DNA of 64,000 nucleotides from Asparagopsis taxiformis (taxonomy: Eukaryota; Rhodophyta; Florideophyceae; Bonnemaisoniales; Bonnemaisoniaceae): positions 1-64,000 of the forward strand of contig JALQPE010002658.1 in NCBI GenBank assembly GCA_030407315.1, read 5' to 3'. Numbering within the stretch: the stretch's first letter is position 1; the number at the start of each line of letters is the position of its first letter. The position numbers and the translations under genes were made by a program. The notes under the pieces are model-generated. The model worked only from the letters and a program-made list of their open reading frames with translations, was not told the origin of the DNA and did no database searches. Below are positions 37,780 to 61,990 of the stretch, in pieces.

Positions 37780-39865
37780 AACTCAGATTTCAGTGGGATC
37801 AGAATCATGAACTCAGGAACAGAACAGATGTTTTCAAGGATGAGCCCACTGTAATTAAATAATTGCTGTTCCAAGCAGTAGCGACATGTGAGTAGTGTTG
37901 GCTGAAGATGGATGGAAGGGTTATTCTCTATTAAACCAGAAAGGTTTTGTGACAACGCAAATGATCTATTTTGTGTGTTACTGTAATTTACTGTAGGATT
38001 TGTATGATCAGCCGACAGGTTTCTGCATTGAATTAAAGACCGTACATAAAATATTGTACCATAATGTTCTCAGGAAAGTTTCGAAATATATCTACTTTTC
38101 AGCATAGTACGATTTTTCAATCCCCACCGTTGCAGCAGTGACAACTCATCTTGTTTGCCTGTGGTAGATTTTGTACAGAAATTATTTTAAACTTGTTTGG
38201 AGCTGTGACTGACAGAACCATCAGCTCCCAATAACACAGTAGACTATGGTTGGCCAATTTCACCACCAGTAGTGCTTCGTAATGGTTGATTCACAGATGG
38301 AGCAGATTATTGTGTTAAAGTTTTGAAATTGAGACAGCAATTTTCCCATTTCATAGCTCCAAATGGATTAAGTCGGCGTGAATTGAATCAAACCTTTTTT
38401 ATTGGATTTCAAGGCACGAAGAAGATATTTTAACTTCAGAACGATAGTTGAGGCACGGCTCGATTTTCGCGCGTCAAAATCTCGACATTGCATACGTTTT
38501 CCGATACAGTATGCAGCCAAGATTATTAGAACGAAACTATCCAAGTCGGATGCAATCAAAACGCATCATGCGGCGGGGGCGACGGTGAACGTATGTGAAA
38601 ACGTGTTCGTCATCCCATGCGTCATTACCCTGCAGATCACTGGCACGGGTTTGTCTAGTCGAAGATACAAGTGCATTGCAGGACAGGAATGCAACTGCGT
38701 CCAAATTGCTCAGGTATTGTTCTGCAACCCAGTTTGTTTTGTATCCACAAAGCTGCAAAATTTTGTGTTATGGTGCCACAGCGTCATGTCCATCCAAAAT
38801 ACTTTCGTCCCTCAGCAACGAACAGTGCCTTGCATATCTCATTTCCTCCGCTCATTTCAGCCGCTCGTATATGAATAACTTCCTTCATAATGCCGATCTC
38901 AATCGAGACAATCTAGTCTACATCATGTTTACTCAAGCTAGACAAACACTCAATGCATAAGAGAATCAAATTGGATCAACGCAGCTCAAGTTGCTTCTTC
39001 ATGAATGGGATGAAGCGCGTGTACGTCATGAAGTTGTAGCCGAAAGATTGGTAGCAGTGCATTTCATACCATAGCTCGTTCCAAGCTGCTTGACACATGA
39101 ATGAATGCATTTGCATTAAAAGTTTGGCTTGGTATGGGAATTACTGAAATTGAACTGTACAGGTTTCAAGCTTGAAGTGGGGTAGGCCGCTTTCCTATGC
39201 AATCAATTCAATCATCGCATAGGCACAAATCCTTACAGACAGACCCCCATTGCTCCTTCAGGACAGGTCTTGAAAGGACTCTCGGCGTAGCTGTTTTGGA
39301 GCTTTCCCTACCACGCAACGCGGCTATGATCAAATGTCCGGTGTCGGTTTGAGAGTGCGGTTCTTTCGGATGGCACCGCTAATAAGCACATGCTTGCAAA
39401 TCATTTCATCTTACTGGCACTGCATAATCAACACAGTGGGTGGGGAAATGTACGCCCTGAAAGCTCCGAGGGAACTCTCCTCCTTGAACGATCAAGGATG
39501 AAATAAGGTGTACCAGATATAGAACGTATGTGCGTTTTCGCTAGCTCTTGCTAGCGATGAGACGAATTAGTCTCTTCGAAGACCATGATTTTCCCCTGCA
39601 TCTATCACTCATTACGGTGGAAACATTGCATCTATTAAGTTCGGAACTCGTAGATGATATTTGGTCATTCACACGCCCGTTAAACTCGGTCATCAATGAG
39701 AGCGAGACTATGAATCGCCCTGTTAGGTTGGCATTGGATGCATCCACTGGATACTAGCCCTAGTTGCAGGATGAGGCACCAGGTGCAATTTCGGGATATG
39801 TAGTTCAATGTACATGGATTAAGGAAGGTGGATCTATCAATTTCATATGCCAGTATGCGTATTCG
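37780..39865 (+). repeat. Left 2.09-kb TIR arm of the large DNA element
   Basis: Matches the reverse complement of 59902-61990 with few visible differences, such as one T fewer in a T run near 38739. The inner boundary is sharp after GTATTCGA. Short frames inside (for example 38402-38878) show no domain. Subterminal words may be transposase binding sites, but none stands out. Confidence 0.9.
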
Positions 39866-40201
39866 ACAATAATCTGTGCTCAAAATTGTGGCAACAAACC
39901 TATTACGCGGGAAAGATGCATCGAAGAATGCCCAAAGTTTACTACAAGATTAGCATTAACGGTTCAGATTCTCGATTTTGAGATAAGGGGGAAACAGAGG
40001 TTACAATGTATACATTGCATCACTGCAGTACCATTGGAAGAAGTATCTCCCATGTTTTTCAGAGTGTCCAACTAGTTTCCGGAGACCGAAAGCTGCTTCA
40101 CCATGGTAAGTATACATTAAGTCTACTCAGACTAAGATTCTGTATTCAACTTACCGAAAGACTTTCTCGTTCCAGCAAATTTTTTACTCCCCTTTTCAGC
40201 T

Positions 40202-42052
40202 TCAGCTGTCCAACATTCTAAGAGAACAAGCGTCCCATGCGTAGAAACTGTCCGTAAGATCTCCCAGTTTCTTGACTTCTTCACCAGTTCCAAGAGATAT
40301 GTAAGGGAATGCAATGTGATCTTTTCCATTGATTACTCTGATACGCCATATCACAACCAAGCACACGCCGTTATTTGAGTATTCGGGGTCAGCTAGGTTG
40401 TGGTTGTGTAGAGTGCGTCTGATCGGCCAAATCTCCCCCGGCGCAGGGAGGGCAAGCTGTGCATCAGCAACTACTTCTCCGTTGACCATAAGTTTAACTG
40501 GACGGTCTGGAAGGAGGTGTTTGCAGGCCTCATCTGGTGTTTTAGTCGTCCTGGTAAGCGCGTCACAATTGAAACTTTTTGTAACACTGTTGTTACTTTC
40601 CTCCCCAAGTTCTGCTTGTTTCATTGCTTGATTTCTCCTGAAACTTTCTGATTCTGTATTTGTCTTCTGGTAAGAGCTTGACAAGCGTCTTGCGAGTCTA
40701 CTATACGCTAAGCGGAAACATTCCAAGTCTTTCTCAATACTTGTACAAGTACGGCCAGTCTCCAAACATGCTAGGGCCGTTGTGAAGGTACCGGCGTAGG
40801 TATCGAGAACAGACCCACCCTCAGGGCAGAAAGTTGTCATAATTTCTATCAACAAGTCCGTGTTCTTCTCTTCAACGCGAACTGGAATTTTCTTCCCTGG
40901 CAGTTGTAGCTTATTCCTTGTCACTGGAATACCTGTAATCGATGCGAATCTACGAGGCAGATTGCAGACAATACGATGATAGGGACTGATGAAATCAGGC
41001 TCAAACTGCTGGGGATGTCTGCCATTCTTTCGAGCAACCACACCATACTCGGTGGCATTTTGGGGAAACGCTGATAGACGATGATGCTGCATACCCGCAG
41101 TCTTCTTCACCAATGAATACACGTGACTCATTACCTTGAAATTTGTTTCACGTAGGAAAGAAATCCATTTCTGGAGGAAGCGAACGGAAGAGAATATGAA
41201 TACGAAACCCCTCGGTTTGACAACGCGAGCCGCAAACTGACAAAAAGAGACAATTTCCTTGTCGTCCAGCTTGTCTTCGAAATGTCTTCCTGTGCCAGAG
41301 GCATTAGGTTCTAAACCGTAGGGTGGGTCTGTAAGGAGCAGATCTATCTCTTCATCATCAGATTGCCGCACAGACTTGTCGTACTCCTCCCAGGTCATTT
41401 GAAAACAATGAATACCCATTTTCTCCAGCATTGAATGTTGTGATATTCTCTTCTCTTGGGAAGAATTTCCTCTCGTTTGTAGGCGCTGGGAGGTTTGTGA
41501 CGGAAAGGTTTTCGTAGATGACTTGCACGGTTTGTCAATTAGTTCTTGACCATCCAATGTTCCATGGATTTCATTTCTCTTTTTCTCATCATCTGACGCC
41601 TGGGAACCATCTAGTTTTCTTTTCTTTCTTGTTGTGAGTGATGAATCTCTGTTTTCTCCCTCAGGAGGTACATCAACATGCTCTTCTTGTACATCTCCAT
41701 CAGGGCAGCTTGTATTATTTGGTGATTCGAAAGAATTGGAAACGTTCCCTTCACCATCTAGGCGCTTTTTCTCTCCTGTCTCCTGCGCAGGGCTCGGAGA
41801 TTTTTCTGATTGTTTCCGATTAGGATACTGCTGGTTGTACTTGGCTTCCCTCATTGGGGCAGAGGCAGGGTGCAACTTGAAGTACAGATCCTTCAAGAAA
41901 GGAAGAATTAAAGTTCCATTACCAGAGTTTTCTTCCACCTCGTCGTCCAATTTTGTCGTTTGGGTAAGGTTCTGCTTTACAGCTGCCATCGCAGTAGGCC
42001 ATTTGTCGCTTTCAAGGAACCTTTCAAACTTAAAAGCTTCTGAAAGTGCCAT
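40202..42052 (-). CDS. DPPY-type DNA methyltransferase (beta-class motif order)
   Basis: 616 residues. The N-terminal about 220 residues are polar and charged, with a nuclear-localisation-like TTRKKRKLDG near residue 141. The catalytic motif DPPY is at 242-245 (IDLLLTDPPYGLEP) and the SAM-binding motif (VLDTYAGTFTTALAC) follows at about 415-430, with SIEKDLECFRLAYSRL after it. Catalytic motif before SAM motif is the order of beta-class amino methyltransferases, which make N6-methyladenine or N4-methylcytosine in DNA; which base is modified here is unknown. Ten bases upstream ends the ParB-like frame, in the same phase and separated by a single TAG. The two probably act together, as a read-through or ancestral fusion. 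The C-terminal about 120 residues are not recognised. It sits just inside the left TIR. Confidence 0.85.
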   Translation of the reverse strand: MALSEAFKFERFLESDKWPTAMAAVKQNLTQTTKLDDEVEENSGNGTLILPFLKDLYFKLHPASAPMREAKYNQQYPNRKQSEKSPSPAQETGEKKRLDGEGNVSNSFESPNNTSCPDGDVQEEHVDVPPEGENRDSSLTTRKKRKLDGSQASDDEKKRNEIHGTLDGQELIDKPCKSSTKTFPSQTSQRLQTRGNSSQEKRISQHSMLEKMGIHCFQMTWEEYDKSVRQSDDEEIDLLLTDPPYGLEPNASGTGRHFEDKLDDKEIVSFCQFAARVVKPRGFVFIFSSVRFLQKWISFLRETNFKVMSHVYSLVKKTAGMQHHRLSAFPQNATEYGVVARKNGRHPQQFEPDFISPYHRIVCNLPRRFASITGIPVTRNKLQLPGKKIPVRVEEKNTDLLIEIMTTFCPEGGSVLDTYAGTFTTALACLETGRTCTSIEKDLECFRLAYSRLARRLSSSYQKTNTESESFRRNQAMKQAELGEESNNSVTKSFNCDALTRTTKTPDEACKHLLPDRPVKLMVNGEVVADAQLALPAPGEIWPIRRTLHNHNLADPEYSNNGVCLVVIWRIRVINGKDHIAFPYISLGTGEEVKKLGDLTDSFYAWDACSLRMLDS

Positions 42053-42061
42053 TGATGCTTT

Positions 42062-43099
42062 CTAGTACTGTTCAGAGACTACTGCAAACTGTACAGGCTT
42101 GAAACCGTTTTCCTTACAAATTTCCCGAAGCCGAAAGAGAGTATTTATCTGAGTTTGTTCTCCATCTGTCCCTGAAGCTTTCATAAATATTGTTGCTTGC
42201 TTTAGAGATGTGATGTTAACGAACTTGCGAAAAACCCTGCAATCAAACTTTGTCTTCACGTTTTCCTTTGTGACTGAAGTATCACTTCTGGCAAAGCTCG
42301 AAGCAGCGAGTTCTGGGTGCTCTTCATTCATTATTTCCCCAATAACTTCAATGGTTGATCGCGGAAGTCGTGAAGCAGTTGCGGCAATTTGCTTGACGGT
42401 GCTTTCTTTAGCATGAGATGAGCCGTCATAAGCTGCAGCTACATCGGCAGCTGTGACTTTTTTCGAGTTTCTCTCTGTTTTGAGTCGATCATGTTCTTCT
42501 CGCAGTCCATTCAGCATGTCGAAAAGGGTTGGCTCGACAAAACATGTCTCAGAGTGTTTCGCATTCTGAACTCTTGCAAGCTGTTTTAGAGTTAGCAGAG
42601 GAACACCTCCTTTCAACATAGTTACTGGCCATCGAAATCCCTCCCAAGTCTCTGGGTGCTTTTCGATAAGTTTTAGGATAGCAGAATGACGGTGCATTCC
42701 GTCAACTACACCAAACCACTGATTCCGTGACTCCATTTTTTCTCTTGCTTCTGATGCGGAAAGACCAGCACCAGTCCAGTAAGAGCAAAGAACATGCCGG
42801 TGTGCTCCTGTGAGTGGCATTACAATTGCAACATCGGACCCTGCCGTGAATCCAGTACTAGAGATAATCGTTGTTAGCCGAGCTACTCCATATGGGGATA
42901 TCTTCCTAATGTTGGTCATCGGAACACAGGCAAGTGGATCAACAGTGGTTATAACGGATCCTTCCATAACATCCTGGAATCGGGATGTCGCAGATTTCTT
43001 AGAAAGCTGCATTGAAGAGGTACCTGTTTCGAGCCTTCCGGACTGTCTGATGTGATTTACCATTGTCTGCTTCAGGGAGTGAAATGATTGTTTCGACAA
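42062..43099 (-). CDS. ParB-like nuclease-fold protein
   Basis: 345 residues. The signature GVVDGMHRH at about 130-138 matches the ParB/Srx-fold core (usual form like xxDGxHRxxA), followed by SAILKLIEKHPE. The N-terminus has LACVPMTNIRKISPYGVARL, like the start of ParB-type domains where a short hydrophobic motif precedes the fold. The part after about 190 is helical and could bind DNA or partners. ParB-type domains are CTPase or nuclease folds often found beside or fused to DNA methyltransferases in phages and plasmids. Here the frame ends EQY-TAG and continues in phase with Lys-Ala-Ser-Met of the methyltransferase. Its role is inferred as DNA recognition or marking for the element. Confidence 0.8.
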   Translation of the reverse strand: MSKQSFHSLKQTMVNHIRQSGRLETGTSSMQLSKKSATSRFQDVMEGSVITTVDPLACVPMTNIRKISPYGVARLTTIISSTGFTAGSDVAIVMPLTGAHRHVLCSYWTGAGLSASEAREKMESRNQWFGVVDGMHRHSAILKLIEKHPETWEGFRWPVTMLKGGVPLLTLKQLARVQNAKHSETCFVEPTLFDMLNGLREEHDRLKTERNSKKVTAADVAAAYDGSSHAKESTVKQIAATASRLPRSTIEVIGEIMNEEHPELAASSFARSDTSVTKENVKTKFDCRVFRKFVNITSLKQATIFMKASGTDGEQTQINTLFRLREICKENGFKPVQFAVVSEQY

Positions 43100-43404
43100 A
43101 TGAAACCAGAGCTAGAGTGGAATATATTGTATTCTCTCATTCAGAAAAGGCTTGAGGAGAATGGATGCGTTGAATTTGAGAGGCAGCCCTCGTTTTGGTA
43201 ATTTTATTCGTCTAGAGATGATAGCCAATAAAAAAAGAATCACTTTCTTCAGAACTAGTAGACCTGATCAGTTCTCAAGTAACAGAAGTCAATATGGGAT
43301 TTTTCAGAACATTCAAGTGTACATTCATGTGTTAGCGATAACGACAGAGTGGGCCACGTTTGACATCATCACAATTCACGGCGCTTTACACAACGTAGAG
43401 CAAG
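43100..43404. promoter_or_regulatory. Native intergenic segment upstream of the ParB-like gene
   Basis: With 46047-46271 and 55645-56626 it forms, once the nested insertions are removed, about 1.5 kb between the divergent ParB-like and DUF7869-like genes. It probably holds their promoters. No clear TATA box or other motif was fixed. Confidence 0.4.
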
Positions 43405-43412: not shown

Positions 43413-46038
43413 TAGACCTGTAATCGGTTTGCGGTCTTTCCAGTTGAAACCGACAAGGTCCAAACCAGAGCAGTCCGTCATATCAAGAACAAAAATTGGT
43501 CCGATCGGTTTAAAAAGCGACGTAACGGTTAGTGGTCTCAATTCAGGGTACGGTCTAGTTTATCGGTCCACAAGCCCTGTGCGGGAAGTCGGATTAGACC
43601 GCTGGACCGTTTCCTCACATTCTTGAACGTTTCATTGTTCGACAATCTATTACAGCAGAGTTGAAGAGCGAAACGTGTTCAATGATAACGGATAGTTGAG
43701 CTCCAAGCAGAATAGATTCTTGTGCTCTCTGCAGACTAAACATAAAACAATATTTCATCATCTCCCGGTTTTCCTGGCAGAATTTACACAGCACTTCGTT
43801 GTTCAAAACATGAATTCAACATCGAACACAACTCTTCCACAGCCAATTTCCACGAGCTCGCAGTCGCCACCTCGAAAAAAATGCAAGAGATCCAAGACCA
43901 GTGAAGTTTGGCAATATTTCAAGGAAATTGCCTGGAATGGCAGTGCACAAACTGAGTGTATGCTCTGCCGCAAGAAATATAGTCGCAAAACAGCAACCAG
44001 CACGCTCGCACGTCACATTTCAGAAGTGCACTCCATTTCTGAGAGCAGTAGACAAACCAAAATATCAAATGACGGGCAGCTTGTCAGTTCTTCTCCCCCT
44101 CCATTGGAAAAGAGACAAGAGAGTCTAACAAAACAGTTGTGCTTGTGGATAATCAATGCATCACTTCCGTTTGCTTCGGTTGAAAATGCAAAATTTGTTT
44201 CCTTTCTTCACACCATCGATCCCACATACAAGCCACCCTGCCGTGTCACTATCCAACGAAGAGCACTGCAATACCATAGCGAAATGCGTTCAAAGATGAA
44301 AAACCTGATCTCCCGAGAAGCTAAGACAGTTTGTCTAACATCTGATGCATGGTCCTCGCGTGTATTTAGAGGCTACATGTGCATTACTGTCAGTTGGATA
44401 AACGACAAGTGGGAGGTCCAAAGCACTGTGCTTGATTTCAAACGGTTTGAGTCTCCGCACACCGGTGGAGCTACCTGTGCTCTTTTACATGATGTTATTA
44501 TGGAATGGGGGCTGAGCGAAAAGGTGAAATCCATCACTACAGATAATGGGAGTGACATTTGTGCTGGTGTCAAGAAGTTGCACAATGTTCTGAAGTCTAG
44601 TTCTGGTAACAACAGTACATTACAGAACTTTCACTTTCGCTGTATTGCCCACGTCATCAATTTGGCAGTGAAAGAATGTATGAAGTTGGTTCACAGTGAA
44701 TTGGCTGCTATTCGGTCTCTAATCAGCTCCATAAGAGGCTCTGTGAAGCGCCGTGATATTTTTGAAGCAGTGAAAATCGAACTGTGCAAACCTGAAGTCT
44801 CATTACCTGGCTTGGACGTTGAAACCAGATGGTCTTCTACTTTCCGCATGATCAAAGATGCGTACAATTGCAGAGCAGTTCTGAATTCAGTTTCCAATCG
44901 TGTTCCAGAACTGAGAGACTCTGTTGTTTCTGATGGAGAATGGAGGAAAGCTAAAACTATCTGTGGGTTTCTGCAACTCGCAGCTAGTGTAACAGAGAGT
45001 CAGTCTGGCTCCCTATACGTGACTTTAAGTTTCAGTGTATTAGCTTACAATGCACTGCTCAAAAGATGTCGCATGGCAATTGAAAACGAAGATGGAATTC
45101 TAAAATCAATTGCTGAGGCAATGCTGGGTAAATTGGAAAATTACAAGGAGGTCGTTTGTTCTGAGATGTCTGAGCTGGCGCGAGCTTTGGATCCCCGAAT
45201 TCCGGGGGACATATTGAGGGATGAAGAAGTTCTGCGGAGAAATATTAAACTGATGGATTTGGCGGGGGAAGGTGGCTACAACAGCCTAGATGGTAACCAG
45301 AATACGAGAAGTGAATCATTACTAGCCCAACTAATCGAAGAAGAGCAAAGCCCGCTATTGGGTCCATCTGATGAAATCAGGAAGTTTGTCCAGGCCACAT
45401 CTGTTGGGGATCTGAAAATTGACCCTTTAGTGTGGTGGAAAACAAATGAAAGTAGGTTTCCAAATATTGCAGAGACAGCGAAAAGTGTGCTAGCAATTCA
45501 GGCATCTTCAGTAGCTTCAGAGGCATGTTTTTCAATTTCCGGTAACATCATTTCGCCCTCAAGATCATCCCTCTCAGATGAAACTATTGTTGCATCAATT
45601 TTGGTGAGATCATGGAGTAGAATCCTGAACACGTAACTAAACGGCTAATTTGAAACTCCTTTCTCTTCTCCATGGATTGCAAAGAAACAATATATTGAAT
45701 GTGAACGAGCTAATCTGTGTGGTTTTCACTCAGCATAACCTCTATAATATCGTTGATACAACTATCTGATCTGTAGCTGTAAGCATAATGGAGATCCGAA
45801 CGTTCTGGTCTTCACCGTCTGGACCGTTTACAAAAACGGTCTAAACCTCGCGATCCATCCGTCCATTTCCGAAGATGCTATGAAGCGCTTCAGTTCAATA
45901 CCGTCTAACCGATGAAAACTGCTATCACAATGTTCAAGAACTGTTCAGTAAGCCGTCTACAATATTGACATTCCGGTTCGGTCCATTTGATGCCCCTGGA
46001 CCACATGCAAGACCAAAACCGGACCATGTACAGGTCTA
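43413..46038 (+). mobile_element. hAT DNA transposon, apparently intact
   Basis: Ends TAGACCTGTA at 43413 and TACAGGTCTA at 46038 form a 10-bp perfect TIR, flanked by the 8-bp duplication GCGGGAAT (43405-43412 and 46039-46046). At 2626 bp it carries one open transposase gene. Both subterminal regions have many GGTCC, GGTCT and GGACC words, likely transposase binding sites. It is nested in the large TIR element. Confidence 0.95.
43696..45636 (+). CDS. hAT transposase
   Basis: An unbroken frame of 646 residues; a second ATG at 43810 would remove 38 residues and may be the true start. A BED zinc finger is at about 69-112 (EVWQYFKEI, CMLCRKKY, HISEVH). The RNase H-like catalytic core has LTSDAWSS near 215 and ITTDNGSDICAG near 282, then CIAHVINLAVKEC near 315 and the hAT insertion-domain region. 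The C-terminal hATC dimerisation part includes DPLVWWKTNESRFPNIAETA and SSVASEACFSISGNII near 580-625. It cuts and pastes the element in the nucleus. With intact TIRs and target duplication it may still be autonomous. It is related to, but clearly diverged from, the decayed hAT at 322-2172. Confidence 0.95.
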   Translation: MSSKQNRFLCSLQTKHKTIFHHLPVFLAEFTQHFVVQNMNSTSNTTLPQPISTSSQSPPRKKCKRSKTSEVWQYFKEIAWNGSAQTECMLCRKKYSRKTATSTLARHISEVHSISESSRQTKISNDGQLVSSSPPPLEKRQESLTKQLCLWIINASLPFASVENAKFVSFLHTIDPTYKPPCRVTIQRRALQYHSEMRSKMKNLISREAKTVCLTSDAWSSRVFRGYMCITVSWINDKWEVQSTVLDFKRFESPHTGGATCALLHDVIMEWGLSEKVKSITTDNGSDICAGVKKLHNVLKSSSGNNSTLQNFHFRCIAHVINLAVKECMKLVHSELAAIRSLISSIRGSVKRRDIFEAVKIELCKPEVSLPGLDVETRWSSTFRMIKDAYNCRAVLNSVSNRVPELRDSVVSDGEWRKAKTICGFLQLAASVTESQSGSLYVTLSFSVLAYNALLKRCRMAIENEDGILKSIAEAMLGKLENYKEVVCSEMSELARALDPRIPGDILRDEEVLRRNIKLMDLAGEGGYNSLDGNQNTRSESLLAQLIEEEQSPLLGPSDEIRKFVQATSVGDLKIDPLVWWKTNESRFPNIAETAKSVLAIQASSVASEACFSISGNIISPSRSSLSDETIVASILVRSWSRILNT

Positions 46039-46280: not shown

Positions 46281-47494
46281 ACTAGACTTTATTCGCCAGA
46301 GGATATTACACATACTGATTTGGGCGTGACTGGGAGGTAGCGCGGGGCGAGTGGACAGGTGTTGTTAGAATTCAGTACGCACTTGAAACTCTGCTTCCAG
46401 TGTACTGGGATAGTGTACGAAATCCTGGGAAATATTTTGGTATGCAAACTTGGAATGTGCCAGCGAGCCGCCGCCGCCGCCGAAGAGGAACCAGGTTTTA
46501 TCATACCGGCGACATTTAGAAACAGCTGGACATTCAAACTCCGGATCACACATAACACAGCCTCGCAGCTATACCTCGCTCCCGCCTGCGCTGTGTGCAT
46601 CACAGCATCACGCCGCCTCCCACTTGCACACGCACGCCGCCTCGCAGCTGTACCTCGCCCCCGCCCTGTGCATCACAGCTTCAAGACGCCTCACAGTTGT
46701 AATTCGCCGCCGCCTGCGCTGTGTGCACCGAAGCTTCACACCGCCTCCCACTTGCACACAGCCTCGCAGCTATACCTCGCTCCCGCCTGCGCTGTGTGCA
46801 TCACAGCATCACGCCGCCTCCCACTTGCACACGCACGCCGCCTCGCAGCTGTACCTCGCCCCCGCCCTGTGCATCACAGCTTCAAGACGCCTCACAGTTG
46901 TAATTCGCCGCCGCCTGCGCTGTGTGCACCGAAGCTTCACACCGCCTCCCACTTGCACACAGCCTCGCAGCTATACCTCGCTCCCGCCTGCGCTGTGTGC
47001 ATCACAGCATCACGCCGCCTCCCACTTGCACACGCACGCCGCCTCGCAGCTGTACCTCGCCCCCGCCCTGTACATCACAGCTTCAAGACGCCTCACAGTT
47101 GTAATTCGCCGCCGCCTGCGCTGTGTGCACCGAAGCTTCACAACGCCTCCCACTTGCACACGCACGCCGCCTTGCAGCTGTACCTCGCCCCCGCCCTGTG
47201 CATCACAGCTTCACACCGCCTCTCACTTGCACACAGCCTCGCAGCTTTACCTCGCCCCCGCCTGCACTGTGTGCATCACAGCGTCACGCCGCCTCCCAAT
47301 TCCACACCGCCACGCAGTTGTACGCTGCGCCCCGCCTGTCTATCTGAACCTGCCAAACACCAAGCGCACTCAGCCTGCAACACTGCTCACCCTTTGTGTC
47401 GCACCACACCTACCAACCACCTGCACCGACTGTGGTTCGCTCTGTGCTGACAAACTGCAAAGCGTAAACTGGCTGGAAACGTTCCTGGCCGCGT
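46281..47494 (+). repeat. MULE-1 left TIR arm with three 201-bp tandem units
   Basis: Tandem units begin CCTCGCAGCTATACCTCG at 46561, 46762 and 46963, exactly 201 bp apart. The right arm has only two units, which accounts for its being 201 bp shorter. Further diverged parts continue to about 47340. The units are C-rich with CACTTGCACAC and GCATCACAGC words. Long frames across them are a by-product of a period divisible by three. Confidence 0.9.
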
Positions 47495-47603
47495 ATATCG
47501 GACGGGAAAGTTCTTCACCCGCGAGAAGGGCACTTAGGGACAAACAGGCAATGGTTTTGGGCTGATGATTAAATCGGGATGGACTTAATATTCTTGATTT
47601 ATT

Positions 47604-50177: not shown

Positions 50178-51190
50178 ACGCGGCCAGGAACGTTTCCAGC
50201 CAGTTTACGCTTTGCAGTTTGTCAGCACAGAGCGAACCACAGTCGGTGCAGGTGGTTGGTAGGTGTGGTGCGACACAAGGGATGAGCAGTGTTGCAGGCT
50301 GAGTGCGCTTGGTGTTTGGCAGGTTCAGATAGACAGGCGGGGCGCAGCGTACAACTGCGTGGCGGTGTGGAATTGGGAGGCGGCGTGACGCTGTGATGCA
50401 CACAGTGCAGGCGGGGGCGAGGTAAAGCTGCGAGGCTGTGTGCAAGTGAGAGGCGGTGTGAAGCTGTGATGCACAGGGCGGGGGCGAGGTACAGCTGCAA
50501 GGCGGCGTGCGTGTGCAAGTGGGAGGCGTTGTGAAGCTTCGGTGCACACAGCGCAGGCGGCGGCGAGTTACAACTGTGAGGCGTCTTGAAGCTGTGATGT
50601 ACAGGGCGGGGGCGAGGTACAGCTGCGAGGCGGCGTGCGTGTGCAAGTGGGAGGCGGCGTGATGCTGTGATGCACACAGCGCAGGCGGGAGCGAGGTATA
50701 GCTGCGAGGCTGTGTGCAAGTGGGAGGCGGTGTGAAGCTTCGGTGCACACAGCGCAGGCGGCGGCGAATTACAACTGTGAGGCGTCTTGAAGCTGTGATG
50801 CACAGGGCGGGGGCGAGGTACAGCTGCGAGGCGGCGTGCGTGTGCAAGTGGGAGGCGGCGTGATGCTGTGATGCACACAGCGCAGGCGGGAGCGAGGTAC
50901 AATTGCGAGGCGGTGTTATGTGTGATCCGGAGTTTGAATGTCCAGCTGTTTCTAAATGTCGCCGGTATGATAAAACCTGGTTCCTCTTCGGCGGCGGCGG
51001 CGGCTCGCTGGCACATTCCAAGTTTGCATACCAAAATATTTCCCAGGATTTCGTACACTATCCCAGTACACTGGAAGCAGAGTTTCAAGTGCGTACTGAA
51101 TTCTAACAACACCTGTCCACTCGCCCCGCGCTACCTCCCAGTCACGCCCAAATCAGTATGTGTAATATCCTCTGGCGAATAAAGTCTAGT
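50178..51190 (-). repeat. MULE-1 right TIR arm with two 201-bp units
   Basis: Reverse complement of the left arm but one 201-bp unit shorter. The tandem units occupy about 50510-50911. The outer 350 bases, including a GGC-trinucleotide run (50991-51003), are near-identical to the left arm. Confidence 0.9.
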
Positions 51191-51204: not shown

Positions 51205-52003
51205 ACTAGAACTTAAACACCCGGCTTAGAGAAGGAATTGATGGAAGCCTTGTCATATGTTGTGGCGAGGGGTGGTCACGGTTGTCCACATCGTAGGTAA
51301 CGCGACTTGGTCGAGATTGGGAAATCCGAATAAATCCAGCTCCGCCCAATTCCGGATTTACCGCCGCCGCCGGTGGGTACTGTAATGATAGCTGTAATTA
51401 AATGACGACATGCAATGAACTTCACGTGACTGAGCTGCCTCGTACGCACCGGTGCATATTCCCTATCCCCGGAACGACCGGTGTTGCGCCTGCGCCGCTC
51501 CAGTGGCATACCCATGGCAACAAATACCACCAAACAGCTTTGAGTTCCTTCGTTCACTGCGCATCGGCGTGCTCAAAACCACACTGACAGCCCTGCTTCA
51601 ACGACCGGCATTGTGCCTGCGCCGCTCCAGCAGCATACCCACCACCGAAAAGCTTTGAGTTACTGCGTTCGCTGCGCACCGAGACGCACAAACACAACCA
51701 CACTGACAGTCCTGCTTCTACATTCATGCAAACTGCTGCAGATACGCTGGAGCTGATCACACTGATGCTCAATTCCGTGAACGCCACTTCACAAATACGC
51801 ACACGGCTTCCCTGCTCCTACATTCCGAAACGAAAGCTTCCGCACTTTTCTTTGTGCTCTTCAATTGGATAACAAGCACTGCGCAAACGTCCAAACTGTC
51901 CTCCCTGCTGTTGCCCACGCTGCACACTACCGCCCGCACATTGATAATCGTATTGATCTTTGTTTATGGAACGGCCACATGATCCACACACTGACATTGC
52001 TGG
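51205..52003 (+). repeat. MULE-2 left TIR arm
   Basis: 799 bp, near-identical to the reverse complement of 54837-55635. It contains a GCCGCCGCCG run (51361-51371) and two diverged copies of an about 120-bp unit around GCGCCGCTCCAG (near 51495 and 51618). Confidence 0.9.
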
Positions 52004-52265
52004 TTATGGATCAAGGAAGATAGAATGTTGTTGGATTCAATACATTTCAGATGTGCTTGAAGCCGTCGGTTCCAGGTACTGGTATTGAATGATAGAGAAG
52101 CGGAATTTAGGTTGATTCATTGGTTTGGAAAGGGTAACAGGCCCTGATATGGAATGAATAGACGAAGGAAACAATTCCGCGATGTGCTGATCCGGTTATT
52201 GTGTCATGCCATGCCATTGCATAGCATGGGTGGATAGCGAACAGAGAGGGAACTTTAATGGTTTA
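52004..52265. other. MULE-2 3' flank of the transposase gene
   Basis: 262 bases between the left arm and the transposase stop, with no recognisable content; probably 3' UTR. No gene is seen. Confidence 0.5.
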
Positions 52266-54830
52266 TTAGGGAAGATTGAGGACATCCTCGTTTTCCCATG
52301 TCCGTGGTGCACCACGTGCATTAAGATTTCTTGACACTCTATCATGGTACGTTCTGTAGCGCTGCAAAACACGGAAAAGATGGTCAATTTGGCGGCTTCC
52401 AGACTCATTTTCTGATAAATCACGGACGTGTTTGATGCCCCAAGCGAAAAGATCTTGTAACTTTCTAGCTGTATCGGTGGGCTGTAGCTCTTCCGTATCG
52501 CGTGATCTAGAAACAATTATACCTGGTACAGCATGCGCAGCATGAACAGATGTAGTTGCGGATGTACCAATTTGGGCTGTTTCAATTGAATTTTCTTCAC
52601 CCGTATGCAGTGAATTCTGCTTTTCTTCACCTAGAATTGTCGCTCTATACCTGTTCTCAACCCTTTTAAAACTGAGAAACGGAGGAGATCTACTTCGTAC
52701 GACATCACGGTAGTTCGGACAGGTCATTCCGGAAGTCAAGTGCTTGCACAGAAAAAATCGGCTATGTAGAAAACCTTCACATGTACATGTCCATCGCAGT
52801 CTGTTAGTAATGTGATTTTTTGTGAGGGGAATCGAACATAGACGATTCCATTCACTGACAAAGTGCCTCCACCATACAGGCTTCTTAATACCCGAACAGA
52901 GAAGCTCAAAGTCAGCGGAGAATCGGGGGAGAACCACTACGGATAGAATGTAAACTAAAAAGTCACATTTTGGCCGATTGTAGGGTAACAAATATACGCG
53001 TTTCAACCTTGACCAATGCGCTTCCACCATCATTGTGGTCCGGGCAATTGGGATAACTTGATTGTGTCGCCTTCCCCACAATTTGAAAACGTCATCCGAA
53101 TACCAATTGCATAGTAAATATGAAATCATCCCAAAATCATCACTTCCTTCCCACAATCTAGCTATCTCAATTCTTGCGTCTGCAAGACCTGACTGAATAC
53201 GTAACTCAGGTTGAAAAGAAGAATGCATGTTGTAGTGTCTAGTGACTAGTTGCAGTATCCTCATCTCCTTTTCCCTCAGTTCCCTATGGCCATCTCTACA
53301 GATAGCATTGATTTTCCGCCGTATTGCTTGCTTCATGTGCCACAAACATATCGATGGCAGAAGTTCGAAAGCTGTTTTGATAGCACCGATCTGCCCCAAA
53401 TCTTTGTCTGTAAAGAAAAATGATGGGCGCAGATCGGGGATTGTAGATCGCACAGCAGCGAGGAATTGAGTGATAGATTGTAGCCTGGTCCGGTTGCATT
53501 CGATACTTCCTGCCTCTAACAAGAGGTAAGCGATCGGGAACCCAACGCCCAGAACTGAACCGATCACTGCAAACAACTCTAATTTTGTAGAGTTAGTCTT
53601 GTATGTTGAATCAATAAACGCCTCGATTATGTTCCATTTCTCGCATATCTCTTTTCCAATCGACGTTACCATCCCAAGTGCGAAAGGAGAAGTTAATTGC
53701 AAAACCAATTCCAAATTTTCAGCACCAGATACAAACGCTAGAGCAGATTCCTTAGGATCTGCACTGGTACGAAATTGAGAGGCTACTGTCTCGCTCCAGA
53801 CATTATATATGTTCATGTATGCGAAGGGAGTGCCAAACATATTTCTAATCCGAACAGATATTTGGAACGGAGACAAACCCAAATTGGTCAGATCCCTGAT
53901 GGCTTTCCGGACATTTTCTGTCATTGCAATGACTTTCTGAGGGCTTTCATGGCAAAGCCCATGTGTAACTGTAACTTTTAAGCGCCTCTGCTTTCCATAG
54001 CATACATTTACAGAGCCCTCACAGCCATACTCTTTCTTAGAAGTCCTTCTCCTCTTTTTGCCTTCCCGGTCACTCGCATACTGACTCTTACGTCTGTTTT
54101 GCAGCTGGCTGCATATCCAACGCGTCGATGTGCATTTCATCTTGTTAGCAATGTAGCTATATCCGTCAGCACCTTTCAAAAGTGCAATTAATCCCGTCTC
54201 CACTTCTCTGCGCTCTTCCTCCGAGCTAAAATCAGCTACCATTCCAAGCACAGAGCGAGATCTCCAGCTGTAGTAAACACACTCTATTGGCCATCGCAGA
54301 TTCCTAGCTGCAGCATGATTGTAACTATGCCATGCTGCAATCGCCTCTCCTCCAGTTCTACAATCATCCAAATCCCCACAAAAGTATATTTTTTGGGGTA
54401 TTTCATCAACAATACATGTCCTCCTGCATTCATTGCAATGTGCACTGATTGAGAGCTCATTGGTTACAAACTGGATGCTCTGCTTACGTTTCAAGCACTT
54501 TGAGCATTTACAACAGAACAAGCTTCTTGCTTCCGTCACTGCTACACTTTTGTCAACAACAAAAGCCTTTAATGACCAAAAAACATTCTCATCTACAACG
54601 TATTCTTCAGAAGAGAATAGCTCTTCGATGCTGGACTCCACCGACTCCAATGGTAATGCATAGGCTTCAGAAAAATAGAAAGCAACATCTTCAACAGTTG
54701 GAAACTCATTACCGAATGCGTCATGATATATTTCTTTTGCGTTGTCAAATGTGTTGGAGAGTATTTCATTGTCTCCCTCGAAATTGCTCTCTTCAATTGC
54801 CATTTTGCTGTCTATACCTCCTATTACCAA
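52266..54830 (-). CDS. MULE-2 transposase (MULE core plus SWIM finger)
   Basis: Unbroken, 854 residues from the ATG at 54830, with a second in-frame ATG nine codons on (MAIEESNFEG) as an alternative start. An N-terminal Cys-rich patch (FCCKCSKCLKRK, then CNECRRTC) lies near 105-140. The MULE core has IDSTYKTN with Asp near 405, FFFTDKDLGQ with Asp near 474 and VEAHWSRLKRVYLLPYNRP near 603. A SWIM finger follows at about 680-697 (CTCEGFLHSRFFLCKH). Layout and motif spacing follow the MULE-1 transposase, so the two belong to one family although most residues differ. It probably cuts and pastes MULE-2 and appears intact. Confidence 0.95.
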   Translation of the reverse strand: MVIGGIDSKMAIEESNFEGDNEILSNTFDNAKEIYHDAFGNEFPTVEDVAFYFSEAYALPLESVESSIEELFSSEEYVVDENVFWSLKAFVVDKSVAVTEARSLFCCKCSKCLKRKQSIQFVTNELSISAHCNECRRTCIVDEIPQKIYFCGDLDDCRTGGEAIAAWHSYNHAAARNLRWPIECVYYSWRSRSVLGMVADFSSEEERREVETGLIALLKGADGYSYIANKMKCTSTRWICSQLQNRRKSQYASDREGKKRRRTSKKEYGCEGSVNVCYGKQRRLKVTVTHGLCHESPQKVIAMTENVRKAIRDLTNLGLSPFQISVRIRNMFGTPFAYMNIYNVWSETVASQFRTSADPKESALAFVSGAENLELVLQLTSPFALGMVTSIGKEICEKWNIIEAFIDSTYKTNSTKLELFAVIGSVLGVGFPIAYLLLEAGSIECNRTRLQSITQFLAAVRSTIPDLRPSFFFTDKDLGQIGAIKTAFELLPSICLWHMKQAIRRKINAICRDGHRELREKEMRILQLVTRHYNMHSSFQPELRIQSGLADARIEIARLWEGSDDFGMISYLLCNWYSDDVFKLWGRRHNQVIPIARTTMMVEAHWSRLKRVYLLPYNRPKCDFLVYILSVVVLPRFSADFELLCSGIKKPVWWRHFVSEWNRLCSIPLTKNHITNRLRWTCTCEGFLHSRFFLCKHLTSGMTCPNYRDVVRSRSPPFLSFKRVENRYRATILGEEKQNSLHTGEENSIETAQIGTSATTSVHAAHAVPGIIVSRSRDTEELQPTDTARKLQDLFAWGIKHVRDLSENESGSRQIDHLFRVLQRYRTYHDRVSRNLNARGAPRTWENEDVLNLP

Positions 54831-54836
54831 TGTACT

Positions 54837-55635
54837 GCAGCAATATCGGTGTGTGGATCATGTGGCCGTTCCATAAACAAAGATCAATACGATTATCAAT
54901 GTGCGGGCGGTAGTGTGCAGCGTGGGCAACAGCAGGGAGGACAGTTTGGACGTTTGCGCAGTGCTTGTTATCCAATTGAAGAGCACAAAGAAAAGTGCGG
55001 AAGCTTTCGTTTCGGAATGTAGGAGCAGGGAAGCCGTGTGCGTATTTGTGAAGTGGCGTTCACGGAATTGAGCATCAGTGTGATCAGCTCCAGCGTATCT
55101 GCAGCAGTTTGCATGAATGTAGAAGCAGGACTGTCAGTGTGGTTGTGTTTGTGCGTCTCGGTGCGCAGCGAACGCAGTAACTCAAAGCTTTTCGGTGGTG
55201 GGTATGCTGCTGGAGCGGCGCAGGCACAATGCCGGTCGTTGAAGCAGGGCTGTCAGTGTGGTTTTGAGCACGCCGATGCGCAGTGAACGAAGGAACTCAA
55301 AGCTGTTTGGTGGTATTTGTTGCCATGGGTATGCCACTGGAGCGGCGCAGGCGCAACACCGGTCGTTCCGGGGATAGGGAATATGCACCGGTGCGTACGA
55401 GGCAGCTCAGTCACGTGAAGTTCATTGCATGTCGTCATTTAATTACAGCTATCATTACAGTACCCACCGGCGGCGGCGGTAAATCCGGAATTGGGCGGAG
55501 CTGGATTTATTCGGATTTCCCAATCTCGACCAAGTCGCGTTACCTACGATGTGGACAACCGTGACCACCCCTCGCCACAACATATGACAAGGCTTCCATC
55601 AATTCCTTCTCTAAGCCGGGTGTTTAAGTTCTAGT
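54837..55635 (-). repeat. MULE-2 right TIR arm
   Basis: Inverted copy of 51205-52003. The transposase start (54830) lies just inside it, so this arm probably carries the transposase promoter. Confidence 0.9.
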
Positions 55636-56626: not shown

Positions 56627-59050
56627 ATGCACTGTCGAAGCTTCATTAAGGGTTTGAAAAATAAATCTGCAAGTTTCTTGATGACATCGAGGGCATTCAT
56701 CGAATCACCTCCCTCATATTCAATGCGAGAGCCGCTCCCACTACATGGAAATAATCAACTACTGGAGGACACTATGTATTCTGGAACATCTATCGATGAA
56801 ACAGTGGCCTCAGGTTCAAGCTCGCAAACAATAAAAAATTCCATATCTGTGAGTCGACAGTACCGGTTTATCAAACGACAAAAGTCGGCTCCAGTTGGTT
56901 CAAGCCTCAAAACTCGCAGGAAAGGAGCAGCAGAATCTTTATCTGAAGAGATACTCCGTCGATCAAAATGCTGTAAAATGAGAAGGTGTTTCTCAAGATC
57001 TAACATTCCGTACCTTAAGGCAAAGGTGGGGATAGTGTCAAAGTTGAATAATGGAGAGCGGCGCAAAGTGTTGATGGAGATGTTACGCTTACCTGATCAT
57101 GAATCAGGCCTTCAAACACCATTTTTCGTTTTCGACGGTCGTCGTGTTTGCGCGGCTTTCCTGAACAAAGCATTCAGGTTCTCTCGTGAATTGCAATGCT
57201 CGGTCAAAATGACACCGGGAAGCATGAAAAGAACAAATCATCGCTACATGGACTTCCATGATCAGAAAACATGCGGTAGTGATTCTATAATATCTTTCCT
57301 GAGACGCCTAGCAGATAAGACGGCTGGGAAGATGCCAGACAAACAGGAACAACACTTACCATTCTTCAAGAAGGCTGAAGTATACCGTCGATTTGAAGAA
57401 GAATACACCATTTTGTACTCAACAGAGCCTCCAACTCCGTCTTACTTCTATTCTGTCTGGAAGTCTCACTGCTTCGATATCAAAGTTCGGAAAACGACTA
57501 GGTTTGCCAAATGTGACGTATGCGAAGAACTGCGTGCAGCGATCCTTTCTGCTTCAGGACCGGGAAGTTCTACCGTTGAACTCATCAATCGGCGCAAATT
57601 ACAAGTTGCCAGGGTTTCCAAGGAGAGGCAGGAATACCAATCTAAGATGGAAAGTGCTATCCTTCATCCAGATCAGTACTGTTCCATTTGTGTCGACGGA
57701 GCAGATCAATCCGCGTTTGGATTGCCGCACTTCACGGTTCAAACGAAGTCTGTTCGAGGCAAAGCTTTAAAGGTGAAGCTGATTGGAATTCTCGAGCACA
57801 GTGCCGAAAAACGTCTACATCTGTATACAATGACAGAAGAATATGAAACAGGCGCAAACCATATCGTGGAAAGCGTACATCGCTTCATCAACGAGCGTGC
57901 ATCTGGTAGGATTCTTCCCCCAATATTGTACATCCAGCTCGACAATTGCACTCGAGAAAATAAGAATAGGTATTTTCTCTCTTATCTAGAGTGCTTGGTG
58001 TCCTGGAAAGTTTTTTCGGAAGTGCATGCATCTTTCCTCCCAGTCGGACACACGCACTCTGACATTGATCAAAGCTTTAGCTGTACATCGCGTCGATTGA
58101 GATCAAGTGATGCTATTACCCTGCATGAACTACATACGGAGCTCCGTGCATCCTACACACCATCCCCAACGGTTTCTCATATGAAAAAAGTGGCAAACTT
58201 TTCGGGACTATGCAAACAAGAGAAGAACTTGACGAACATGAGAAACTTCTCACATTTTCAGTATTTCAAGTTCAATCGACTACCTACATCAAAACAGAGC
58301 TCAGAAGGATTCTTCGAAACGATATGTTACGTCAAAACAGTTTGTGACGGAGATTGGGTACCTCTCGGACAGCATCTTGGTAAAGAGGTCCATACGTTCC
58401 TGAAGAATCCCCCGGACCTTGGAAAAACTCCCCCGACTTCAGTTACCTGCCCTGAAGGCCTAGACGAAGTAGAAGCTCGTTTGAGATCCGAAGAAGGGAG
58501 AATTAATTGCGAAGAGAAAATGGCTCAGCTACGAGATCTAGCGTCCAATGTTTTTCGTTCCAGGCTGGAAAGTTTTCACTGGGATATCCAGGGCTGTGTA
58601 GAAGGGAGCGGGCTCCAAACAAAAGAAGCGGAGAATGATAGTTGTGAAGAATTTGAAGAGGAAATCGGATCTTATCAGGCTGCGCTCTCCAGGGTTCGAA
58701 ACAATTATGGCTTCGAAAAAAACCGATTCGTTGCCGTCCGTCCTTCAAATCCTACAGCAGCCTGTCCTTTTTGGATTGCGAGGGTTCTAGAAGTGATTAA
58801 TGGAAGAGAGGGGGTTCCAAGAGAGCTAATCGTACAATGGTTCGAACCCAATTCTGAAAGAGATGTATACCACACATCGTACTCTCCCTCTTTCATCTCA
58901 AAACATGGAACATCACATCGTACCGCGTGGCGCGACAATATTCCAACGGATTCTGTAATTGTAGAGTTCGCAGATCTAACTAAGAAAAAGGAGCTAGGAA
59001 TGAGAGTGCAAAAGCTATTGCGAAGAGAGTTCTGTGCCTTCATCAGCTGA
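56627..59050 (+). CDS. DUF7869-like protein, candidate transposase of the large TIR element
   Basis: 807 residues, unbroken; the start is uncertain because the first 40 residues have no marker. Middle part: YFYSVWKSHCFDIKVRKTTR and a Cys pair KCDVCEEL near 300, as in proteins with a DUF7869 domain. The conserved core has CVDGADQSAFGLPHF near 352-366, LYIQLDNCTRENKNRYF near 434-450 and LPVGHTHSDIDQSFS near 470-484. The three Asp-bearing motifs have the order and spacing of an RNase H-like nuclease. DUF7869 proteins are widespread in eukaryotes; I do not know of a proven function. Being the only native gene apart from the ParB/methyltransferase pair, and lying beside the right TIR, it is the best transposase candidate. 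That is inference. Confidence 0.75.
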   Translation: MHCRSFIKGLKNKSASFLMTSRAFIESPPSYSMREPLPLHGNNQLLEDTMYSGTSIDETVASGSSSQTIKNSISVSRQYRFIKRQKSAPVGSSLKTRRKGAAESLSEEILRRSKCCKMRRCFSRSNIPYLKAKVGIVSKLNNGERRKVLMEMLRLPDHESGLQTPFFVFDGRRVCAAFLNKAFRFSRELQCSVKMTPGSMKRTNHRYMDFHDQKTCGSDSIISFLRRLADKTAGKMPDKQEQHLPFFKKAEVYRRFEEEYTILYSTEPPTPSYFYSVWKSHCFDIKVRKTTRFAKCDVCEELRAAILSASGPGSSTVELINRRKLQVARVSKERQEYQSKMESAILHPDQYCSICVDGADQSAFGLPHFTVQTKSVRGKALKVKLIGILEHSAEKRLHLYTMTEEYETGANHIVESVHRFINERASGRILPPILYIQLDNCTRENKNRYFLSYLECLVSWKVFSEVHASFLPVGHTHSDIDQSFSCTSRRLRSSDAITLHELHTELRASYTPSPTVSHMKKVANFSGLCKQEKNLTNMRNFSHFQYFKFNRLPTSKQSSEGFFETICYVKTVCDGDWVPLGQHLGKEVHTFLKNPPDLGKTPPTSVTCPEGLDEVEARLRSEEGRINCEEKMAQLRDLASNVFRSRLESFHWDIQGCVEGSGLQTKEAENDSCEEFEEEIGSYQAALSRVRNNYGFEKNRFVAVRPSNPTAACPFWIARVLEVINGREGVPRELIVQWFEPNSERDVYHTSYSPSFISKHGTSHRTAWRDNIPTDSVIVEFADLTKKKELGMRVQKLLRREFCAFIS

Positions 59051-59901
59051 CAAGAGTCAGATGTGCTGTTCCATGGCATGTTGAATAAAAATGATGAAAC
59101 TTTTAGTTGTGAGAATTGTTGTTGCGTTTCATACGGTCTCCAGGAACTCTCAGCATTCACTTGCAAGTAGTCTAATTTCACCTAGCTGTGTCAACTGACA
59201 CTTTCACAGCGATGCATATTGTGCACATCACCTGTATACAGGTAATAACCTAGACTAACAGCTTAATCTTGGGAGGTAGCACACTTTTATGATTCATAGT
59301 GCTATGAACCGTTGAATTGACATATAAGAATACGAGACGAACACTCCCTACGTATTATACGGTTCGTCATGGTACATATCCAGATGTTTTATGACAAATA
59401 AACTCAACGTCGTGGATCACTGATCCCAGCCACTTAACAGGTAGTCCTCAACGTTTGTGTTTCGTTTCCCCGGCTTCTATATCGTCGAAAGGAGAACGAG
59501 ACTGTAGTCTCCAGGGTGAGTCCTAGATGAAGCATGTCTTTCCTAGCTTCAACTTGACCTGAGTTTGCATTGAAATCGTTGTAGCATATGCATCATATCC
59601 GAGGAGAGTTTCATCTTGCATTCTGGACACAAAATCACTTCGTGGTGTAAACAATCAATATCTTACACAGGCCGTTTCGAAAACTTTCTCTTTCTTCCAT
59701 AGGACGAAGAAAATATTTGACAGTTGAACCAAAGCCTCATTCTCAGACTTTCTCTGGAAGGACAACAATTTCCAAGTCAATCGTAAAATAGGGAGTAGGA
59801 TTATGCAGTAAATGTCTATATTGGATCAGTCACTGCATAGTTGATATCTTCGTCCCGATGTATGAATATTTGTAGCAACATTGCCTCTTCAGAAGACATA
59901 C
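59051..59901. other. Non-coding spacer between the DUF7869-like gene and right TIR
   Basis: About 850 bases with no domain on either strand. It begins with AATAAA (59085-59091), 35 bases after the stop, a plausible polyadenylation signal for the DUF7869-like gene. Confidence 0.5.
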
Positions 59902-61990
59902 TCGAATACACATACTGGCATATGAAATTGATAGATCCACCTTCCTTAATCCATGTACATTGAACTACATATCCCGAAATTGCACCTGGTGCCTCATCCT
60001 GCAACTAGGGCTAGTATCCAGTGGATGCATCCAATGCCAACCTAACAGGGCGATTCATAGTCTCGCTCTCATTGATGACCGAGTTTAACGGGCGTGTGAA
60101 TGACCAAATATCATCTACGAGTTCCGAACTTAATAGATGCAATGTTTCCACCGTAATGAGTGATAGATGCAGGGGAAAATCATGGTCTTCGAAGAGACTA
60201 ATTCGTCTCATCGCTAGCAAGAGCTAGCGAAAACGCACATACGTTCTATATCTGGTACACCTTATTTCATCCTTGATCGTTCAAGGAGGAGAGTTCCCTC
60301 GGAGCTTTCAGGGCGTACATTTCCCCACCCACTGTGTTGATTATGCAGTGCCAGTAAGATGAAATGATTTGCAAGCATGTGCTTATTAGCGGTGCCATCC
60401 GAAAGAACCGCACTCTCAAACCGACACCGGACATTTGATCATAGCCGCGTTGCGTGGTAGGGAAAGCTCCAAAACAGCTACGCCGAGAGTCCTTTCAAGA
60501 CCTGTCCTGAAGGAGCAATGGGGGTCTGTCTGTAAGGATTTGTGCCTATGCGATGATTGAATTGATTGCATAGGAAAGCGGCCTACCCCACTTCAAGCTT
60601 GAAACCTGTACAGTTCAATTTCAGTAATTCCCATACCAAGCCAAACTTTTAATGCAAATGCATTCATTCATGTGTCAAGCAGCTTGGAACGAGCTATGGT
60701 ATGAAATGCACTGCTACCAATCTTTCGGCTACAACTTCATGACGTACACGCGCTTCATCCCATTCATGAAGAAGCAACTTGAGCTGCGTTGATCCAATTT
60801 GATTCTCTTATGCATTGAGTGTTTGTCTAGCTTGAGTAAACATGATGTAGACTAGATTGTCTCGATTGAGATCGGCATTATGAAGGAAGTTATTCATATA
60901 CGAGCGGCTGAAATGAGCGGAGGAAATGAGATATGCAAGGCACTGTTCGTTGCTGAGGGACGAAAGTATTTTGGATGGACATGACGCTGTGGCACCATAA
61001 CACAAAATTTTGCAGCTTTGTGGATACAAAAACAAACTGGGTTGCAGAACAATACCTGAGCAATTTGGACGCAGTTGCATTCCTGTCCTGCAATGCACTT
61101 GTATCTTCGACTAGACAAACCCGTGCCAGTGATCTGCAGGGTAATGACGCATGGGATGACGAACACGTTTTCACATACGTTCACCGTCGCCCCCGCCGCA
61201 TGATGCGTTTTGATTGCATCCGACTTGGATAGTTTCGTTCTAATAATCTTGGCTGCATACTGTATCGGAAAACGTATGCAATGTCGAGATTTTGACGCGC
61301 GAAAATCGAGCCGTGCCTCAACTATCGTTCTGAAGTTAAAATATCTTCTTCGTGCCTTGAAATCCAATTAAAAAAGGTTTGATTCAATTCACGCCGACTT
61401 AATCCATTTGGAGCTATGAAATGGGAAAATTGCTGTCTCAATTTCAAAACTTTAACACAATAATCTGCTCCATCTGTGAATCAACCATTACGAAGCACTA
61501 CTGGTGGTGAAATTGGCCAACCATAGTCTACTGTGTTATTGGGAGCTGATGGTTCTGTCAGTCACAGCTCCAAACAAGTTTAAAATAATTTCTGTACAAA
61601 ATCTACCACAGGCAAACAAGATGAGTTGTCACTGCTGCAACGGTGGGAATTGAAAAATCGTACTATGCTGAAAAGTAGATATATTTCGAAACTTTCCTGA
61701 GAACATTATGGTACAATATTTTATGTACGGTCTTTAATTCAATGCAGAAACCTGTCGGCTGATCATACAAATCCTACAGTAAATTACAGTAACACACAAA
61801 ATAGATCATTTGCGTTGTCACAAAACCTTTCTGGTTTAATAGAGAATAACCCTTCCATCCATCTTCAGCCAACACTACTCACATGTCGCTACTGCTTGGA
61901 ACAGCAATTATTTAATTACAGTGGGCTCATCCTTGAAAACATCTGTTCTGTTCCTGAGTTCATGATTCTGATCCCACCGAAATCTGAGTT
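59902..61990 (-). repeat. Right 2.09-kb TIR arm of the large DNA element
   Basis: Inverted near-identical copy of 37780-39865, ending GAAATCTGAGTT followed by CATT. High similarity of the arms suggests a young insertion or ongoing correction between them. Confidence 0.9.

Follow-up and report, generated by a model that had tools for sequence, protein, structure and literature searches.

A terminal inverted repeat DNA transposon of the red alga Asparagopsis taxiformis pairing a ParB-like/methyltransferase fusion with DUF7869, its probable transposase

Introduction

DNA transposons carrying a ParB-like/DNA methyltransferase protein are already known from algae. In the brown alga Ectocarpus, the 21.5-kb giant DNA transposon Sola1-1_Ec32 encodes a protein of 1104 amino acids (aa) with ParB-like and N4C/N6A methyltransferase parts, on the strand opposite to the transposase, and its authors proposed that this protein binds and modifies its own transposon (PMC12477816, accessible text). 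For red and green algae, the same text cites transposons of this kind (Petroll et al. 2025, on Bostrychia; Iyer et al. 2011), so that neither the idea nor the gene is new, and it mentions giant accessory-bearing EnSpm elements in red algae. Retrotransposons with captured cytosine methyltransferases have also been described (PMC5890265, accessible text). Here we analyse a stretch of 64,000 nucleotides of Asparagopsis taxiformis (assembly GCA_030407315.1, contig JALQPE010002658.1, positions 1 to 64,000; hereafter the window), which contains at 37780-61990 a genuine DNA transposon, probably of the cut-and-paste type, with terminal inverted repeats (TIRs) and two native genes. One encodes a ParB-like/DNA methyltransferase fusion and the other a DUF7869 protein, which is the probable transposase. 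In bacteria, the adenine methylation that controls transposons such as Tn10 comes from the host. The eukaryotic element described here seems to encode an adenine-type methyltransferase of its own and to have retained it beside the transposase across deep divergence, a domain having changed places between the two proteins.

Results

A transposon with two native genes

Aligned over 2,089 bases, the arms of the element differ by 3 mismatches (99.76% identity), and their termini read AACTCAG. Near-identical inverted arms of about 2.09 kb and CATT on both sides had been described by a first reading of the DNA made without database searches (the sequence-only reading), and both observations hold. 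The native features are the following (TSD, target site duplication; ORF, open reading frame; SD, shared domain).

37780-61990: TIR transposon, 24.2 kb, TSD CATT on both sides
37776-37779, unstranded: left TSD, CATT
61991-61994, unstranded: right TSD, CATT
37780-39866, + strand: left TIR, starting AACTCAGATTT, with CAGAA at positions 21 and 41
59902-61990, - strand: right TIR
40202-43099, - strand: ParB-like/DNA methyltransferase fusion gene, with one in-frame stop at 42062-42064 in the window copy
42065-43099, - strand: ParB-like part, motif WFGVVDGMHRH, with weak GmrSD_N and DndB matches in relatives
40706-41347, - strand: N6/N4 amino-methyltransferase domain, motif DPPY, N6_N4_Mtase in Pfam (E 3.1e-15)
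40205-40546, - strand: C-terminal SD, also N-terminal in some DUF7869 proteins
56627-59050, + strand: DUF7869 gene, intact ORF of 807 aa, Pfam E 2.3e-51, predicted DDD transposase
57629-58168, + strand: RNase H-like catalytic core, residues 335-514
58694-59011, + strand: possible BAH-like domain, residues 690-795

Three native genes had been proposed from the sequence alone. The DPPY methyltransferase and the DUF7869 gene were recovered, the latter opposite in strand (+ versus -) to the ParB-like/methyltransferase sequence as had been read, but a separate ParB gene was not: the ParB-like ORF (42062-43099) and the methyltransferase ORF (40202-42052) share one frame with a single stop between them, which rules out separate genes. 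Since, in addition, the relative P0123 (936 aa, 95% identical) covers both parts uninterrupted, the element has two native genes in opposite orientation. The window DUF7869 protein is 96% identical to P0001, the presumed partner of P0123. The window copy thus combines an intact transposase ORF with a methyltransferase gene containing an internal stop.

The two native proteins

The methyltransferase part displays the N6_N4_Mtase fold and the DPPY motif of the beta-class amino-methyltransferases. Its best fold matches are beta-class N6-adenine enzymes, and N4C enzymes match too; the methylated base would most likely be adenine. The catalytic motif is retained in 12 of the 12 paired proteins compared below. 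The matches listed by the fold search with the fusion protein are taken up by this part, and NCBIfam and PHROGs return methyltransferase families, plus weak or unknown-function families. For the window copy, Pfam matches nothing in the ParB-like part up to E 1. Among nine ParB sequences, Pfam gives weak GmrSD_N matches in three and weak DndB matches in two, and a PDB sequence search with these nine has a TetR regulator (E 2) as its sole match. A second methyltransferase ORF of 624 aa (L025:541-2412, + strand), 32% identical to that of the window and also carrying the SD, adjoins the element C16 (such handles denote contigs and loci of the assembly).

The only Pfam family matched by the window DUF7869 protein up to E 1 is DUF7869. 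Its predicted structure is integrase-like with an RNase H-like fold, and the triad D357/D439/D481 is found in all 12 DUF7869 proteins of the paired elements. The model therefore suggests that DUF7869 is the probable transposase of the element, a DDD RNase H-fold enzyme, with perhaps a BAH-like chromatin domain at its C-terminus. DUF7869, a domain of unknown function, can thereby be tested for a role as the core of a DDD transposase.

Paired trees and a domain shared by the two proteins

Trees of the transposase and of the methyltransferase were compared for 12 elements, nine from this genome and three pairs, presumed partners, from public data. They show no conflict between well-supported branches, and the Mantel correlation of 0.957 is reached by none of 10,000 permutations; within two clades, the match is reached by 1 of 5040 and 6 of 120 permutations. 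The phylogeny that the sequence-only reading had proposed as a check thus shows agreement between the fusion and DUF7869.

The SD, about 100 aa long, forms the C-terminus of the methyltransferase protein and has no Pfam match. Among 120 listed DUF7869 proteins, 12 have a homologous N-terminus. In each of the 12 paired elements the SD was found on one protein only: on the methyltransferase in 11, and on the transposase in ext8748, whose methyltransferase lacks it; in none was it found on both. The 11 matches on methyltransferases hold by construction, since the profile of the SD derives from the C-termini of these same proteins, and independent support for the homology comes from the alignment and from single-sequence searches. 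On a tree of 129 DUF7869 proteins, the SD carriers fall in two separate places, with five inferred gains or losses versus a shuffled mean of 11.7, although some apparent losses may be incomplete proteins. We consider it rather probable that the ParB-methyltransferase fusion is a long-kept partner, and not a passenger, of a Sola-type DDD transposase, with methylation coupled to transposition.

A pairing kept because both proteins are needed for spread would also be found if the methyltransferase acted broadly on host chromatin, through anti-silencing or transcription-permissive N6-methyladenine (6mA), and not on the ends of its own element. This explanation, which we regard as doubtful, draws on the possible BAH-like domain of the transposase, suggesting contact with chromatin, and on the tie between 6mA and transcriptionally permissive chromatin across eukaryotes (PMC12695648, accessible text); the exchange of the SD between methyltransferase and transposase points instead to a common element-specific target or complex.

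Terminal motif and target sites

Searched in the assembly, the initial 501 bp of the left arm match the two arms of the window element only, so that its family is single-copy there; further copies, sought with the TIR end as the sequence-only reading had advised, were thus not recovered. Many dispersed relatives in the assembly nevertheless share its gene pair and end motif and are flanked by 4-bp TSDs. Identical 4-bp TSDs were found at 10 of 13 independent sites with both ends read, the window included.

Window: CATT
C1689: TCGT
C2197: AACG
C1974: CACG
C150: CCGG
C3057: TGTT
C1570: ATCA
C1581: CAAA
C1609: CTGC
C348: AGAG

The flanking 4-mers of C786, C2895 and C2105 are unequal, and these sites were counted as failures among the 13. 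When restricted to elements with a listed ParB match, the TSD is found in 7 of 9 sites. The 13 sites leave out C16 (right side disrupted), C837 (identical to the C1581 site) and single-end copies; the left ends of C816 and C90 and the right end of C228 were not found, which places these elements outside the count. The elements C1570, C1581 and C1609 measure 13.9, 13.9 and 25.8 kb, respectively. The gene content of this group is known from 7 kb of C1581 alone, where a DUF7869 paralogue without catalytic core (described below) is present and the ParB-methyltransferase was not found. TIR length varies, the extremes being about 3.6 kb in C786 and the lack of any long repeat in C3057.

All 31 ends start with AAC or ACC and carry CAGAA at position 21, most of them having been located by a pattern that contains this motif. 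Four ends were located solely by comparing arms or copies; CAGAA is at position 21 in 4 of 4 of these, and it occurs in them seven times in all versus a shuffle mean of 0.8 (0 of 2000 shuffles). Among ten representative ends, eight carry a second CAGAA at positions 40-43, outside the search pattern, a count reached by none of 2000 shuffles; six of these ten were found with a pattern containing CAGAAT or GAACAGAATG, hence the bias-free repetition of the position-21 test. The motif search for one end type gave 61 matches versus none in the reversed control. Around the C90, C228 and C3057 genes, inverted repeats were sought with short seeds and none was found; these ends were located by the common motif instead. 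The arms of C816 and C16 as first delimited were rejected (no TSD, arms too short), and outer pieces of other copies gave the C16-type ends.

Long near-identical arms in a single-copy family are what a local inverted duplication would leave. This origin is ruled out by the TSD and by an end motif common to dispersed relatives having TSDs of their own, and we give it practically no credence. The mobility assumed by the sequence-only reading is confirmed by these shared ends and TSDs, with DUF7869 as the probable transposase.

The target site of the window element (37760-37779 joined to 61991-62010) forms a near-perfect palindrome, GGGACAAT-C-ATTGTCCC, and those of C1689 and C150 have shorter inverted arms. 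Overall support for a preference for palindromic targets is weak: the best-offset score is reached in 11 of 2000 shuffles, but in 1397 of 2000 when centred on the TSD, and the window is the main contributor.

Distribution in the assembly and associated genes

The ParB part was scored at 117 places at least (656 candidates), with no stop in the matched stretch of 107 of the 117, and DUF7869 at 150 places at least (502 candidates); both counts are lower bounds, in which neighbouring contigs may count one element twice. All seven relatives fetched encode the ParB-methyltransferase in a single ORF (963-1052 aa), with a DUF7869 ORF near (in pieces in C816 and C150). Two further families have the fusion as a single ORF of 1022 aa (C1017) or in pieces (C279). 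After merging of the lists, a listed DUF7869 lies within 12 kb of 76 of the 117 ParB places and is absent, among the matches listed, from the other 41. The window itself is scored as a miss, because its nested insertions set the two genes about 14.6 kb apart. Conversely, 94 of 170 DUF7869 loci have no ParB within 12 kb among the matches listed, and DUF7869 elements without methyltransferase may therefore well exist. At C481:29207-43131, four ParB matches of equal score, spaced by ~4.3 kb and with one stop each, form an apparent tandem array. Phycobilisome proteins also match the assembly at 13 places, of which 11 lie on contig C469 (best E 1.1e-57) and one was read as allophycocyanin beta, in keeping with a red-algal host.

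Pieces of an XMAP215/CLASP TOG-domain gene occur in the C3057 family (L031:2531-5775, - strand). They are found at 13 places identical to the query and at a fourteenth listed with 100% identity but scoring slightly less. The likely host gene is an ORF of 2079 aa at C2212 (C2212:35498-36229; 97%), and the pieces look like captured host sequence. Such capture lends some substance to the idea that the ParB-methyltransferase was itself captured as a passenger and plays no part in transposition. We hold this to be very improbable, since the captured TOG gene is fragmented whereas the ParB part is overwhelmingly stop-free, and since the trees of the two element proteins match and a domain has been exchanged between them.

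Core-less DUF7869 paralogues of 346-407 aa, in which the N- and C-terminal parts are present but the catalytic core is missing, occur in the C90, C3057 and C1581 elements. They are mutually related (E down to about 5e-51) and, searched in the window, match the DUF7869 gene itself only.

L027:7035-8255, - strand: core-less DUF7869 paralogue
L031:6797-7966, - strand: core-less DUF7869 paralogue
L093:5714-6751, - strand: core-less DUF7869 paralogue

The core-less protein is a possible regulator of transposition. Its presence in three related elements makes self-regulation plausible, and a second possible regulator would suit a ParB-methyltransferase that represses its own element (copy-number control) and does not activate it. 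We find such a repressor unlikely: a pure DNA-binding repressor would not need catalysis, and the catalytic motif is retained throughout the paired proteins.

Insertions within and around the element

Three transposons are nested in the element, each with the exact target duplication that the sequence-only reading had noticed.

43413-46038, + strand: nested hAT, ORF 43696-45636, exact 8-bp TSD GCGGGAAT, Pfam hAT transposase
46281-51190, - strand: nested MULE 1, ORF 47604-50177, exact 9-bp TSD GACCTTTCT, Pfam MULE transposase
51205-55635, - strand: nested MULE 2, ORF 52266-54830, exact 9-bp TSD TTCTGGTGC, Pfam MULE transposase
61815-62783, + strand: copia reverse transcriptase ORF of the flanking interrupted retrotransposon, RVT_2 E 1.3e-16

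The three insertions make up half of the element, whose native length without them is 12,218 bp, in accordance with the previous estimate of about 12.2 kb. Direct repeats with 73/55-bp spacing lie within the arms of the first MULE (46281-47500 and 50172-51190) and lower the apparent identity of these arms. Of the copia gene said to be split at the outer ends, the right half stands: the first 176 bases of its ORF are inside the right TIR and the RVT_2 match is outside. The left half was not recovered, as the sole left-flank ORF given to Pfam (36457-37074) has no match. Two retrotransposons at 8994-15927 (+ strand) and 19015-24421 (- strand), named Ty3/gypsy-like by eye from their ORF content, make up a large share of the window's left part, which is GC-rich.

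Discussion

Returning to the fusion as a long-kept partner of the transposase, we can outline how the two proteins might cooperate. DUF7869 would cut and join at the CAGAA-marked ends, making the 4-bp target duplications. The ParB-methyltransferase is predicted to bind the element through its ParB-like part, the SD or both, and to methylate, most likely, adenine at or near the ends. The SD would serve the same target for both proteins, or join them to each other, and the marking would thereby be coupled to the assembly of the transposase. The methyl mark might license transposition, or else keep the chromatin of the element open or protect the element. In its strongest form, which we advance tentatively and regard as possible, modification and transposition would be one coupled machine: the ParB-methyltransferase and the BAH-bearing transposase would share, and over evolution exchange, one end-recognising targeting domain, only adenine-methylated ends would be assembled and moved, and some families would add the core-less paralogue as a regulator. 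With its ParB-part matches, this algal genome may offer a natural source of targeted 6mA (or N4-methylcytosine), a mark debated in eukaryotes.

Comparison with known systems

Bao et al. 2009 are said to have defined the Sola superfamily by a 4-bp TSD, a DDD transposase and sequence kinship to the Sola1/2/3 transposases. The present elements display the 4-bp TSD at ten of 13 sites and, as a predicted activity, the DDD transposase (triad in 12 of 12, RNase H-like model), and the window element is probably of the Sola type. EnSpm/CACTA elements have termini beginning with CACTA or CACTG and a TNP2-type transposase domain. Some of the present ends resemble them by reading AACACTG, with CACTG at position 3, but the ends begin with AAC (ACC in C228) and not with CAC, and the window transposase matches DUF7869 alone in Pfam at the threshold used above. 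The beta-class N6-adenine enzymes CcrM and M1.HpyAVI differ from the present enzyme, which is fused to a ParB-like part and an SD in a eukaryotic transposon. The retrotransposons with captured methyltransferases likewise join a mobile element to DNA methylation, but with a C5 enzyme, whereas here a DNA transposon carries an amino-methyltransferase (PMC5890265, accessible text).

The sequence-only reading had named no eukaryotic transposon family with its three proteins. This does not stand for the ParB-methyltransferase, already published in algal transposons (PMC12477816, accessible text). The elements of Petroll et al. 2025 have similar proteins in the same host group, the red algae, and the overlap of these and of the elements of Iyer et al. 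2011 with the present families may be large, to judge from their citation in that text. Among the papers listed, no title or abstract opening reports a domain common to both proteins, their co-evolution or a core-less paralogue, subscription papers being mostly outside this coverage; the name DUF7869 occurs in no paper of the collection searched. In the accessible account of Sola1-1_Ec32, neither DUF7869 nor the end motif is mentioned, nor are a core-less paralogue, co-evolution of the two proteins or a domain that the methyltransferase protein has in common with the transposase. Sola1-1_Ec32 and the window element are alike in carrying a ParB-like/methyltransferase protein opposite in strand to the transposase; the paired architecture and the domain exchange of the present elements appear new.

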